From contig JAHBXV010000030.1 of assembly GCA_019636285.1 (NCBI GenBank), positions 1 to 64,000 of the forward strand: a stretch of 64,000 bases of DNA, written 5' to 3'. Every line of letters begins with the position of its first letter. Within the stretch, counting starts at the first letter, position 1. The stretch comes from Planctomycetaceae bacterium (GTDB lineage: Bacteria; Planctomycetota; Planctomycetia; Planctomycetales; Planctomycetaceae). Positions 3,780 through 61,520 of this stretch are shown in pieces. A model generated the notes under the pieces. The model did no database searches and was not told where the DNA came from. It saw only the letters and a list, made by a program, of their open reading frames with translations. The position numbers and the translations under genes were made by a program.

Positions 3780-4138
3780 GGGGTAGGCCCAGCGATGAAA
3801 AGGAGCCTGAAGTGCTTGTTGGGACGACGCTCACAAACCTTCACTCAATGTATTCGCCGATAGCTTACGGAAAATTAAGGTTCAGTCGAGTCCAGTCCAC
3901 AAGACGGTCGTCTCCTCGCCCTTGAAACCGCTCCAATCGCTGCGTTCGGCCCCGCCGAATTCCCTTCCGGCCCCATCCGCGCTAAACTTTGTCGCTGTGG
4001 AAGGTTCCGACCGACTGGCCGCCCGGCTCCCGATGTCGGGAACCCGGTAGCACTCAACCGTGTCATCCGGGGGCGCTGCTGGCGCAACCGGAAAGCCGGG
4101 CCGCCTCGCTCTCTCACTTCTCTCGAACGACAAGCACC
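3780..4138. other. Divergent intergenic region between acyltransferase gene and leuS
   Basis: About 360 bases that must hold the promoters of both divergent genes. The only AT-rich patch is around 3835-3885. No T-box, hairpin terminator or repeat family member was seen. An in-frame extension of leuS to 3989 is open but lacks family similarity. Confidence 0.4.
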
Positions 4139-7282
<3,144 letters not shown>

Positions 7283-13620: not shown

Positions 13621-13698
13621 GTGTGCCACTGGCTTCGCCAGTGTGTCTTTCAGTGGATTTCAAATAACAAGATGCCCTGGCAGAGCCAGTGGCCCACG
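13621..13698 (+). repeat. Two-hairpin element, family R3 copy 1
   Basis: Left half GTGCCACTGGCTTCGCCAGTG and right half GGCAGAGCCAGTGG are inverse to each other, and each is itself a hairpin. It lies between kdsD and the LptC/LptA-like gene and overlaps the most upstream possible start (13689) of the latter. Other copies: 30114-30189, 33793-33866, 58652-58680 and 61199-61222. Confidence 0.8.
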
Positions 13699-30113: not shown

Positions 30114-30189
30114 GTGTGCCACTGGCTCCGCCAGTGCCGTTCGTCAATCAGGGCTCCAGGACAAGTCACACTGGCGGAGCCAGTGGCAC
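30114..30189. repeat. Two-hairpin element, family R3 copy 2
   Basis: GTGCCACTGGCTCCGCCAGTG at left and CACTGGCGGAGCCAGTGGCAC at right, about 30 nt apart; each half is a hairpin and the halves are inverse. It lies between cpaF and tadB. Confidence 0.85.
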
Positions 30190-33792: not shown

Positions 33793-33866
33793 TACCACTG
33801 GCTTCGCCAGTGTGCCTTTAGTGGTTCTGCCTATAAAAAGACGCACTGGCAAAGCCAGTGGCACAC
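33793..33866. repeat. Two-hairpin element, family R3 copy 3
   Basis: ACCACTGGCTTCGCCAGTGTG and CACTGGCAAAGCCAGTGGCAC about 30 nt apart, between the convergent glmS and reverse transcriptase genes. Confidence 0.85.
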
Positions 33867-33908: not shown

Positions 33909-35201
33909 TTAGCGCTCCCAGTCGATCTGCTCGAAGATTGCCAGCAGCTTCGCGCCGCGTGCCGGATTGAGCAGCGAAACGTGCCCGATCCGGCCGCGCA
34001 GATGGAGCGCGAACTGGGGATGGTTGTCGCGATTCTGGCTCGTCGGGCCGTGGCGATGGCAGTTGGTCAGAATCGCCTTGAGCGTGTCATACGCGCGGCG
34101 ATCGATGTTTGGGCGTTCGTTGACCACGACGCCGGTCACGATCTGCCGTCCGGCTTGACGCAGCACGCGGGTTTTGCCGCGGTTCACCCGCAAGCCTTCG
34201 CGGCGAATGATCTGCTTCGCGAGCGGGATGAACACGGCCAGACTGGCGGCAAAGCGCTCGGGACCGGAAAACGTCAGGTCATCGGCATAGCGGGTGTAGG
34301 TTGCCCCGAACTTGCGGGCCAGACCCGCGAGCCGTGCATCGAGTCGACTGAGGACGAGGTTCGACAAAGCGGGCGATGTGGGGGCACCCTGCGGCAAGTG
34401 AGCCGGGAAGTACGGCCACAGCGTCAGCGAACTGGTTCCCGACTTTCCGGTCGGAAACGGCTGATTGAGGGGAAGCCGCGAAGTGACGAGCCGTCCCAGC
34501 CAGATGGCCGCTTCGCGGGAATACCCCAGCCCGCGAAACAGGCGAGCGATGCGGGCCAGGCGAATGCTTGGATAGAAACTCTCCAGATCGAGTTTCACCA
34601 CCACGCACTGTCCGACGTGCGGTTCGGCGTTGGTGAGGATGGACCGACCAAGGACGAAACCGTGAACGGCTGAATGCGTCGCGATCCGGGAGAGAATCTC
34701 ATCGAGGATGCGGGACTGCAGCGCTTTGAGCAGCCGTTTGGGGGACTCGATCAGACGCCAGCCGCCGCGGCGTTTTTCGATCCACCGGAAATGATAGTGG
34801 GCGCGCTGCGGGTCGATCGGCCGGCCGTGGCGAAAGTGGTTCGTCAGCCAGGCCAGTTCCTTGAGGGGAAGTCGCAGCCAATCGGCCAGTTCCTGCGGGT
34901 GATGAAAGACCGGGAGACCAGCGGCGATTAGCGCCTGGTCGTCGCCGTCGGTGCTCATGTCGAGATAGCCCCGCCCGGTGATCGACTTGCGAGCGAACGG
35001 ATAGGGTTTTTTCGGGACCACCACCCGCGTCGAGCGAAAGCGGTTGGACCACTGGCGGGGGCGGTCCTTCTTCAGTCGTACGCGGCCGTGAGTCTGGGCT
35101 GAAGAACGTGCGCCGCTCGTCTGGCTCATGGCCGTCGGGGGCGATGCGGCGCGGCGGGGGCTGCCGAACAGCAGGCTGAAGAACCAGTTCAGCAAACCCA
35201 T
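33909..35201 (-). CDS. Retron-type reverse transcriptase
   Basis: 430 aa. RT motifs in order: KRLLKALQSRILDEIL, HGFVLGRSILTNAEPH with the retron region-X motif NAxxH (N191-H195), VVVKLDLESFYPSI (catalytic D205), LPQGAPTSPALSNLVLSRLD (~269-288), TRYADDLTFSG with catalytic D307/D308, GLRVNRGKTRVLR and the retron region-Y motif VTG (V355-G357), then ERPNIDRRAYDTLKAILTN. These identify a retron RT rather than a group II intron maturase. No maturase or endonuclease domain is present. The first ~90 residues are basic with a hydrophobic start (MGLLNWFFSLLFG) and precede the core at PVFHHPQELADWL. The start is at 35201; ATG 34958 is an alternative. A candidate msr-msd lies 90 nt upstream. No effector gene is in the operon. 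Confidence 0.93.
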   Translation of the reverse strand: MGLLNWFFSLLFGSPRRAASPPTAMSQTSGARSSAQTHGRVRLKKDRPRQWSNRFRSTRVVVPKKPYPFARKSITGRGYLDMSTDGDDQALIAAGLPVFHHPQELADWLRLPLKELAWLTNHFRHGRPIDPQRAHYHFRWIEKRRGGWRLIESPKRLLKALQSRILDEILSRIATHSAVHGFVLGRSILTNAEPHVGQCVVVKLDLESFYPSIRLARIARLFRGLGYSREAAIWLGRLVTSRLPLNQPFPTGKSGTSSLTLWPYFPAHLPQGAPTSPALSNLVLSRLDARLAGLARKFGATYTRYADDLTFSGPERFAASLAVFIPLAKQIIRREGLRVNRGKTRVLRQAGRQIVTGVVVNERPNIDRRAYDTLKAILTNCHRHGPTSQNRDNHPQFALHLRGRIGHVSLLNPARGAKLLAIFEQIDWER

Positions 35202-35290: not shown

Positions 35291-35460
35291 CGGCCGGGGG
35301 GACGCACAACAATTCTTCGGGCGAATTGCGTGTCGGTACAAAGCGTACCGACGCGCAATTCCCAACCAGAGTGTCTGGCAAGGCGTCGAACGCGGGGTAG
35401 CCCCGCGCCTTGTGACGCGACGTGAATCGCGCACAACGAGCTTGGGCGTCCCCCAGGCCG
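35291..35460 (-). ncRNA. Candidate retron msr-msd RNA
   Basis: Read on the minus strand, i.e. the RT strand. a1 (35460-35446) and a2 (35305-35291) are a 15-nt inverted repeat with 14 matches. An AGC trinucleotide (35442-35440) lies three nt after a1, where retrons place the branching guanosine. Next come three small hairpins (35431-35416, 5-bp stem; 35411-35380, 7-bp GC stem plus 4 bp; 35378-35366, 5-bp stem), as in an msr. Then a 17-bp hairpin with one mismatch and 5-nt loop (35361-35323) could be the msd. The RT start is 90 nt downstream. The architecture fits retrons; msDNA production is inferred. Confidence 0.6.
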
Positions 35461-35971: not shown

Positions 35972-37384
35972 ATGGACGGGTTTGGCTCTGCCAAGTCGGG
36001 CAAAGATGACGATAGCTGGGGCAAACTCGCCTCCGATCTGTTTGGCGTGACGTTTGGAAACGACGACGACGTCGAACTCCCCGATCCCGAGCCGATCGTG
36101 GCCCCGGCTCCGAAGCCGGTCGCGGAGGTAGCACCTCCCCCTGCCCCGAAACCCTCGCGTGTCGAAGACGAGCCCGATCTGTCGTTCGACTCGTTCGATG
36201 ATCTGCCTCCCGAGGTCGTTCCGGTTCCGCCTCCCCGCCAGGCCGCACGTCCGGCCCCCGCAGCGCGCGTGGAGAAGGAACGGGTCGAAAAGGAGCGCGA
36301 ACCCGAGCGGAACGAACCTGCCGAGGTCGAAGCCCAGAAAACGGAAGACAAGGGCGAACGGGACGATTTCTGGGATGCGCTCGATAGCTGGAACTGGGAC
36401 GATCCGGAATCCTCCGAAGGGACAAAATCTTCGGCGGTCGGTGGATCGGAAGACTCGTCCGGACGCTCCCGCGACCGCGGCGATGGCCGTCGTGGCTCCG
36501 AGAGAGGCCGACGAGATCGTGGACCGCGCGAGCGTGGCGGCGAGCGTCGTGACCGCGGCGAACGAGGCGATCGCTCCGAGAGCCGCCGTGCGGCTCCCGA
36601 AAGTTCCGAACGTCGTCGCCCGCGCCCGGTGGAAGACGACGCCCCCAGCCGACCGGCAGCCTCCGAATCGTCGGCCCCCGCCGAGGAACCCCGTCGCGAA
36701 GAACGGCCGCCGCGCCGTCGGCGAGATGGCCGACGTGCGGGAAGCGAAGGAGCGCCTGCCGCGCGAGCCGAACGTCGTCCGCCGCGCGAAGTCGATGAAT
36801 TCGCGGGTGAATTATTCGACCTCGATGATGAAGAATTGACGTTGGACGAGGATCTGGAAGAAGTTGCGGATGTGGAACCGGGCGAAAAGCCGGCGTCGCG
36901 ATCTGAAGACGGTGAGGACGAGGATCGTCCTCGCCGCCGCCGTCGCCGCCGTCGTGGCGGTCGCCGCCGCGAGCCCGTGCATACCACCGCCGAAGACGAT
37001 GTCGATGCCGACGATGAGCCGGCTGGTTTCGCGGATGACGAACTTACCGACGAAGAACCGGTAGAGTCTGAAGCCGTCGGCGAAGACGATGACGACGAGG
37101 AAGAGGAACAGCCGCGCCGCCGTCGTCGCCGAGGACGCCGTCGCGGTCGTGGCGGTTCGTCGAGCGAATCGCGTCCGGTGGTGAAAGACTCGGACGACGA
37201 CGAAGAAGAAGACGTCGAGGACGAGGAAGACGCGCTGCCGGAAGAGCGAGCGCCCCGCAAAGTCGCTCCAGTCACCTACGACGACGTTCCGACCTGGGCC
37301 GAAGCAATTTCGTACCTGATCGTGCCGCGTGACAAGGGTCCCAGTCGCGATTCCTCGCGAGGCCGCGGTCGCGGACGGAACTGA
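35972..37384 (+). CDS. Highly charged, intrinsically disordered protein
   Basis: 470 aa, no signal peptide or folded domain recognised until the end. Composition alternates in blocks: Asp/Glu/Pro (residues ~25-95), Arg/Glu/Asp (~100-270, RERGGERRDRGERGDRSESR), acidic (~275-310), an octa-Arg stretch with RGGRR (~330), acidic again, Arg-rich (RRRRRRGRRRGRGG), acidic, then a short ordered tail YDDVPTWAEAISYLIVPRD followed by SRGRGRGRN. The RGG-like and Arg-rich blocks suggest nucleic-acid binding or a condensate-forming role, as inference only. ATG 35972. mtaB starts 79 bases after its stop on the same strand. Confidence 0.75.
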   Translation: MDGFGSAKSGKDDDSWGKLASDLFGVTFGNDDDVELPDPEPIVAPAPKPVAEVAPPPAPKPSRVEDEPDLSFDSFDDLPPEVVPVPPPRQAARPAPAARVEKERVEKEREPERNEPAEVEAQKTEDKGERDDFWDALDSWNWDDPESSEGTKSSAVGGSEDSSGRSRDRGDGRRGSERGRRDRGPRERGGERRDRGERGDRSESRRAAPESSERRRPRPVEDDAPSRPAASESSAPAEEPRREERPPRRRRDGRRAGSEGAPAARAERRPPREVDEFAGELFDLDDEELTLDEDLEEVADVEPGEKPASRSEDGEDEDRPRRRRRRRRGGRRREPVHTTAEDDVDADDEPAGFADDELTDEEPVESEAVGEDDDDEEEEQPRRRRRRGRRRGRGGSSSESRPVVKDSDDDEEEDVEDEEDALPEERAPRKVAPVTYDDVPTWAEAISYLIVPRDKGPSRDSSRGRGRGRN

Positions 37385-45060: not shown

Positions 45061-45283
45061 TGACCGCGAAGCGGTCAAAGAGGGTAGCCCTGGGTCGCGC
45101 AGCGCACCCACGGTCCGGAATCATCGTTCTTATGTTTCTTCCCACCCCCAGCGGGGGTCGCAGATACGTACGAATGTCTGCGACCCCCGCTGGGGGTCGA
45201 GAGCCTGAAAAGGACCATTGAACCGTGGGTGCGCCCGCGACCCACGGCTACCATCTCCGATGCCGGAGGCATCGGAGGAATCA
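45061..45283. repeat. About 223-bp nested-palindrome element, family R4 copy 1
   Basis: Order: TGACCGCGAAGCGGTCAAAG, GGTAGCC, CGCGCAGCGCACCCACGG, a central pair of CCCCAGCGGGGGTCG and CGACCCCCGCTGGGGG arms, then CCGTGGGTGCG, CCACGGCTACCATC and GATGCCGGAGGCATCGGAGG. Outer parts are inverse to each other. A copy with the same order lies at 61296-61520. Confidence 0.85.
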
Positions 45284-58651: not shown

Positions 58652-58680
58652 GTGTGCCACTGGCTCCGCCAGTGTGTTTT
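58652..58680 (+). repeat. R3 half element acting as hairpin terminator
   Basis: GTGCCACTGGCTCCGCCAGTG followed by TGTTTTTC just after the kinase stop: one R3 hairpin with a T-run, so it may serve as the kinase terminator. Followed by a TCGTTCCCAGGCTCTCCC patch like the one near 45010. Confidence 0.7.
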
Positions 58681-61295: not shown

Positions 61296-61520
61296 TGACC
61301 GCGAAGCGGTCAAAGACGGTAGCCGTGGGTCGCGCAGCGCACCCACGGTAAACAGAGACATCTTTTTTTCTATCGACCCCCAGAGGGGGTCGAAGATACT
61401 CGAGCGCTTCTGCGACCCCCGCAGGGGGTCGATAGCCAAGAGAGAAGGTCCATGCTTTCCGTGGGTGCGCTGCGCGAGCCACGGCTACCATCTTCGATGC
61501 CTCCGGCATCGGAGGCATCA
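61296..61520. repeat. About 225-bp nested-palindrome element, family R4 copy 2
   Basis: Same block order as 45061-45283: TGACCGCGAAGCGGTCAAAG, CGCGCAGCGCACCCACGG, central CGACCCCCAGAGGGGGTCG and CGACCCCCGCAGGGGGTCG arms, CCGTGGGTGCG, CCACGGCTACCATC and the CCTCCGGCATCGGAGG end. It lies just downstream of the TPR lipoprotein gene. Confidence 0.85.

Follow-up and report, generated by a model that had tools for sequence, protein, structure and literature searches.

The interval 35460-35291, read on the minus strand, is very probably the msr-msd RNA gene of a two-part retron, made up of this RNA and the reverse transcriptase (RT) encoded beside it, without a linked effector. Retrons are bacterial systems that make short single-stranded DNA and are best known as mobile phage-defence cassettes. 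The window analysed here is a stretch of 64,000 nt from a Planctomycetaceae bacterium (contig JAHBXV010000030.1, positions 1 to 64,000). Judged from its sequence, the system is a retron: it combines an RT carrying YADD, NAXXH, and VTG with an RNA closed by a1/a2 arms, a priming G, and a short-loop stem.

The original prediction paired 35460-35446 with 35305-35291, and these arms indeed match at 14 of 15 nt. They can be lengthened inward by four nt, giving 19-nt arms (a1, 35460-35442; a2, 35309-35291; both on the minus strand) with 17 of 19 positions matching. An arm pair scoring as well appeared in 1 of 132 Markov-shuffled upstream regions. The 19-nt a1 ends immediately before G35441, which had been proposed as the branching guanosine within an AGC context; the context is as described, and the base is the G of AAGC directly 3′ of a1, where it is predicted to serve in 2′-OH priming. 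The predicted folding energy of the 190-nt RNA is −104.4 kcal/mol (z = −6.6), a value equalled by none of 200 shuffles. The start codon of the RT (35201-35199) lies 89 nt beyond a2, in agreement with the earlier estimate of 90 nt.

Between the guanosine and a2, three small hairpins and a 17-bp hairpin had been described. The second of the small ones (msr hairpin 2, 35408-35390; an 8-bp stem with a 3-nt loop and a GGGG-NTA-CCCC core) is conserved; the first (msr hairpin 1, 35437-35410) is exchanged for other stems of varying sequence and size in other species; and the third, within 35381-35366, is absent from relatives. The large hairpin, which we assign to the msd (35361-35323), is really two 8-bp stems separated by one C.A mismatch and capped by a 5-nt loop. 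The segment between it and a2 (35322-35310) is conserved in relatives as CGCCACAGGATCNG and is the predicted start of reverse transcription.

Based on its motifs, profile matches, and predicted fold, the neighbouring gene (33909-35201, minus strand) encodes a retron RT of 430 aa. Its frame is intact, and all of the RT hallmarks are present: NAXXH of region X as NAEPH (191-195), YADD (305-308), and VTG of region Y (355-357). These motifs are known as the hallmarks of retron RTs (PMC6868368; PMC4244168). The best PADLOC RT profiles were RT_other (2e-126), RT_outgroup (2e-120), and RT_XIII (4e-104), and the retron Ec86 RT came first among PDB profile matches. An AlphaFold model with a pLDDT of 85 had retron RTs as all of its best PDB fold matches, again with Ec86 on top. 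A Pfam search of the protein returned no domain besides RVT_1.

The N-terminus of the window RT, MGLLNWFFSLLFG, belongs to a type of start shared by the RTs of three planctomycete lineages (such as MGLFDFLRRLLFG) and absent from nearly all other relatives. AlphaFold predicted the first 39 residues poorly, save for a low-confidence helix at 3-12. Several versions of this helix in the family have a hydrophobic moment of 0.38-0.51; because the window version (0.21) and that of another planctomycete family, f27 (0.13), have no clear hydrophobic moment, membrane binding by the helix is only a conjecture.

The same RNA was found upstream of 27 orthologous RTs. We built a covariance model, as the original prediction had suggested, from the sequences of 25 relatives with 40 modelled pairs. 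Compensatory changes were strong: 26 of the 40 pairs had changed on both sides, doubly changed cells numbered 138 (shuffles, 38.8), and pairing was possible in 95.6% of cells, compared with about 40% when partners were slid. The covarying parts were the a1/a2 helix, hairpin 2, and the msd stem. Loss of the a1/a2 pairing upstream of orthologous RTs had been named beforehand as a finding that would speak against a retron; the pairing is instead conserved, with both-side changes at 15 of 24 pairs. In the msd hairpin, all 8 modelled pairs had changed on both sides. Hairpin 2 was nearly invariant, pairing in 100% of cells across the 25 sequences and changing on both sides at 3 pairs, and the A and G of the branch site were invariant (25/25), followed by C, A, or T. 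This conserved a1/a2 pairing, together with an RT that is retron-like in motifs, profiles, and predicted fold, supports the interpretation of the element as a retron RNA.

The RTs of retrons Eco1 and Eco3 bind an msr stem of 8-9 bp with a 3-nt loop (PMC6868368). Since the stem of hairpin 2 is of the same size, we infer that it is the putative RT-recognition element. Most related RTs from outside the family likewise have its GGGG-NTA-CCCC core in their upstream region.

Within two genera, the blocks of the RNA were far better conserved than the fourfold sites of the RT gene, which indicates that the RNA is under selection. For the more distant pairs, msd identity was 84% (g10) and 55% (g51), against 40% and 34% at RT fourfold sites. 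One relative (G061, locus L108, minus strand) carries two tandem RNAs upstream of one RT, at 3932-4082 and 4251-4401, with identical msr and shared arms and with different msd stems. This pair had raised the idea of a hypervariable msd as the sign of an arms race, which we rejected as a general rule because the msd outconserves RT fourfold sites in the two genera.

A strict sigma-70-like promoter pattern (TTGAC-N16-19-TAnnAT) lies a short way 5′ of a1 in 15 of 27 relatives, compared with 0.04% of shuffles. The window has a −10 hexamer, TACGAT (35476-35471, minus strand), 10 nt before a1, which predicts a transcription start at or just before a1; its −35-like hexamer, TGGACT (35500-35495, minus strand), is a one-mismatch version of the pattern. 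The window copy is among the more divergent, with this imperfect −35, two mismatches in the 19-nt arms, and an altered post-msd segment.

Rfam held no family, the retron msr family included, that reached its gathering score over the window, and nothing credible appeared for the locus at E values up to 10. The covariance model defines an RNA family that is absent from Rfam. It matched 107 of 170 genomes of the family, nearly always with one strong match each. At thresholds of E up to 1e-100 for the RT and 1e-9 for the RNA, 102 genomes had both parts, 1 had the RT alone, 4 had the RNA alone (two of these with partial RT matches), and 63 genomes labelled as the same family had neither. The RT was thus present in 103 of 170 genomes, and about 60% of the species sampled from the family had both parts; the co-occurrence is highly significant (Fisher P = 1.6e-40, a value uncorrected for genome relatedness). 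In a sample of the phylum outside the family, the model found only three weaker matches, all in one other family. Related RTs with recognisably similar RNAs are more widespread than the model matches.

The RT orthologues of the family form one clade (support 99) that is sister to another planctomycete family. Distances between RTs correlated with those between RpoB sequences (Mantel 0.41; none of 5000 permutations reached this value), and the two trees had 8 splits in common, against 0.2 by chance, with no strongly supported conflict. This agreement points to largely vertical inheritance, and the data fit such a history with occasional transfer possible and many deep branches unresolved. GlmS was also tried as a species marker; it showed no correlation and split a genus that both RT and RpoB kept together, so RpoB was used instead. 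A mobile origin was considered and set aside: no place in the phage records covered 80% of the RT, and the RTs there were weakly similar. Among plasmid records, RT identity reached 47.5%, in Burkholderia records of about 1 Mb.

The search for a linked effector came up empty in the window, at 28 family loci, and at 60 related loci belonging to other families and phyla. The PADLOC accessory models gave no convincing match to the seven flanking proteins of the window; the marginal ATPase matches among these (E 2e-4 to 6e-4) fall on a CpaF-like secretion ATPase. In the 60 wider loci, with at most 4 kb of flank each, the ORFs that recur widely are those overlapping the RT itself, and no effector gene recurs. 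An effector encoded elsewhere in the genome is possible. As none was found, the system cannot be placed under retron types I-XIII.

Two neighbours recur widely among the 28 family loci: a divergent M50 peptidase upstream (13/28) and a membrane protein of about 250 aa downstream (12/28). The membrane protein (loci L086-L111) is conserved, has no Pfam match, and occurs in most family genomes tested and in 0 of 16 outside. We rejected it as an effector; it is also found in family genomes without the retron RNA and elsewhere in the window's genome, so we read its position as inherited, ancestral synteny. The M50 peptidase was rejected on the same reading. The window locus itself sits away from the synteny of the other genera. 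Divergent from the RNA gene, the window has a 470-aa, extremely charged, low-complexity protein rich in Arg, Glu, and Asp (35972-37384, plus strand) with no Pfam match.

The window also contains two kinds of palindromic sequence. One is a dispersed element of about 190 bp with long inverted arms (61305-61500 and 45070-45263), which gave 82 match rows at roughly 40 places in the genome, most of them counted on both strands. The other is the palindrome CACTGGCnnnGCCAGTG, with 8 matches against 0.02 expected. It occurs in pairs 48-49 bp apart at 13627-13691, 30120-30185, and 33796-33860, one pair lying between the RT gene (3′ end) and glmS, and singly at 58658 and 61204.

The system shares much with Retron-Eco1 (Ec86) and the other effector-bearing types I-XIII, including the RT fold (its best PDB match), NAXXH, VTG, the a1/a2 arms, the G after a1, a short-loop msr recognition stem, and an msd hairpin (PMC6868368). 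It differs from them in lacking a linked effector or fused domain, in its largely vertical inheritance, and in having no Rfam match, and the fold alignment shows only 27-28% identity between the RT and Ec86. The original suggestion that this may be a new type is fair and unproven: the RNA has no Rfam match, a comparison made with Rfam models alone, whereas the RT falls in the existing PADLOC catch-all class RT_other. That class, RT_outgroup, and RT_XIII gave the best RT profiles, yet no flanking protein convincingly matches a retron accessory model. In the passages covered of the literature on retrons and planctomycetes, including those of one paper that names Gimesia, these retrons are not described.

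Myxobacterial retrons (Mx162, Sa163) offer a precedent for vertical, near-ubiquitous retrons and resemble the planctomycete system in their extended RT N-terminus, their near-ubiquity in the host group, and their vertical inheritance (PMC6868368). Compared by description, the RNAs differ: that of Mx162 has a transcript of 241 nt, an msd of 162 nt, and CAGC as its branch context, whereas the planctomycete RNA has about 170 nt, a short msd, and AAGC. Related retrons occur in Burkholderia, Paraburkholderia, Acidobacteria, Verrucomicrobia, and Pyxidicoccus (L162-L222), whose RTs are 42-50% identical and which have the same RNA layout, the GGGG-NTA-CCCC hairpin in most cases, and no recurring effector gene. 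Unlike the planctomycete RTs, nearly all of these lack the N-terminal MGLF-type helix, and all fall outside the planctomycete orthologue clade. In family f27 (L133-L140), many sampled genomes have an RT; these RTs start MGLFDWLFGKKK, and at least 6 of 8 loci have a similar RNA whose a1/a2 arms differ in sequence (GAGATTTGA...). For retrons that lack an obvious effector, disruption of the system has been reported as well (PMC12548924).

Several other explanations deserve consideration. The RNA might be a cis-acting leader of the RT mRNA, which it would control as an attenuator, riboswitch, or mRNA-stability element, rather than a template for reverse transcription; its position immediately 5′ of the RT gene, on that gene's strand and with its own promoter, is what a leader would have. 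We consider this very improbable. In the three species of genus g16 (G051-G053; loci L105, L107, and L104), the RNA and RT genes are on different contigs, at least tens of kb apart in G053; the RNA sits in a conserved neighbourhood without an RT, and its core hairpin is missing from the sequence 5′ of the RT gene in G051 and G053. Both parts are kept although unlinked, which speaks against a simple cis leader and in favour of two parts that function together in trans. The variable RNA-RT spacing (about 30 to several hundred nt), the tandem copies in one relative, and the msr-msd architecture also speak against a leader. The proposal that the structure is a dispersed palindromic repeat or transposon end, upstream of the RT by chance, draws on the existence of such repeats in this genome. 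It can be regarded as refuted, given that a genome search found the element, including the large hairpin, in one copy and that it co-occurs strictly with the RT over 170 genomes.

The remaining two explanations accept a retron. One holds that the retron is real in the family and that the copy in the window, now in decay, has stopped making msDNA. This would account for the two arm mismatches, the altered post-msd segment, the single mismatch in the −35, and a position outside the synteny of other genera, but the RT frame is intact with all motifs and the RNA still scores 120.7 bits (E 2.8e-24) with a fold z of −6.6, so that decay seems unlikely. The other, to which we assign close to an even chance, is that of an ordinary anti-phage retron with its effector gene at another site in the genome. 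To our knowledge, all retrons tested for function are defence systems, and the unlinked RNA of one genus indicates that the present system does not need linkage. Defence retrons are usually patchy, however, and this one has a wide, single-copy, vertical distribution; in addition, the seven flanking proteins lack a convincing PADLOC effector match, and no effector gene recurs near relatives inside or outside the family.

The most likely reading overall is a working, vertically inherited, effector-less retron making a predicted msDNA of roughly 70-80 nt. By analogy with known retrons, the RNA would be transcribed from a start at a1 and then fold, the RT would bind hairpin 2, and synthesis would be primed from the 2′-OH of G35441. 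Copying of the template would begin at about 35310, proceed across the msd hairpin, and end short of hairpin 2, yielding a branched msDNA of about 70-80 nt. The DNA product should then be longer than the 35323-35361 first proposed, running from roughly 35310 to about 35385. Conjecturally, the RT-msDNA particle may sit at the membrane via the N-terminal helix of the RT. It may act through an unlinked host protein as a sensor of phage or DNA damage, or the msDNA or RT itself may have a housekeeping role; we hold a sensor with an unlinked partner and a housekeeping role to be about equally likely.

Retrons are currently viewed for the most part as mobile, patchy, toxin-armed phage sensors. The system described here is unusual for retrons in that it is mostly single-copy, vertically inherited over much of a family, and without an adjacent toxin, with an RNA able to reside elsewhere in the genome. 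We tentatively propose, at somewhat less than an even chance, that many planctomycetes carry a domesticated, membrane-tethered, vertical, effector-less retron with a cellular job other than abortive infection, within a wider effector-less clade that shares one RNA architecture across several phyla. The covariance model supplies many compact RNA-RT pairs for the production of single-stranded DNA, and a retron of this kind makes it directly testable, in cultured planctomycetes, whether some msDNAs work for the cell itself, which is an old question.
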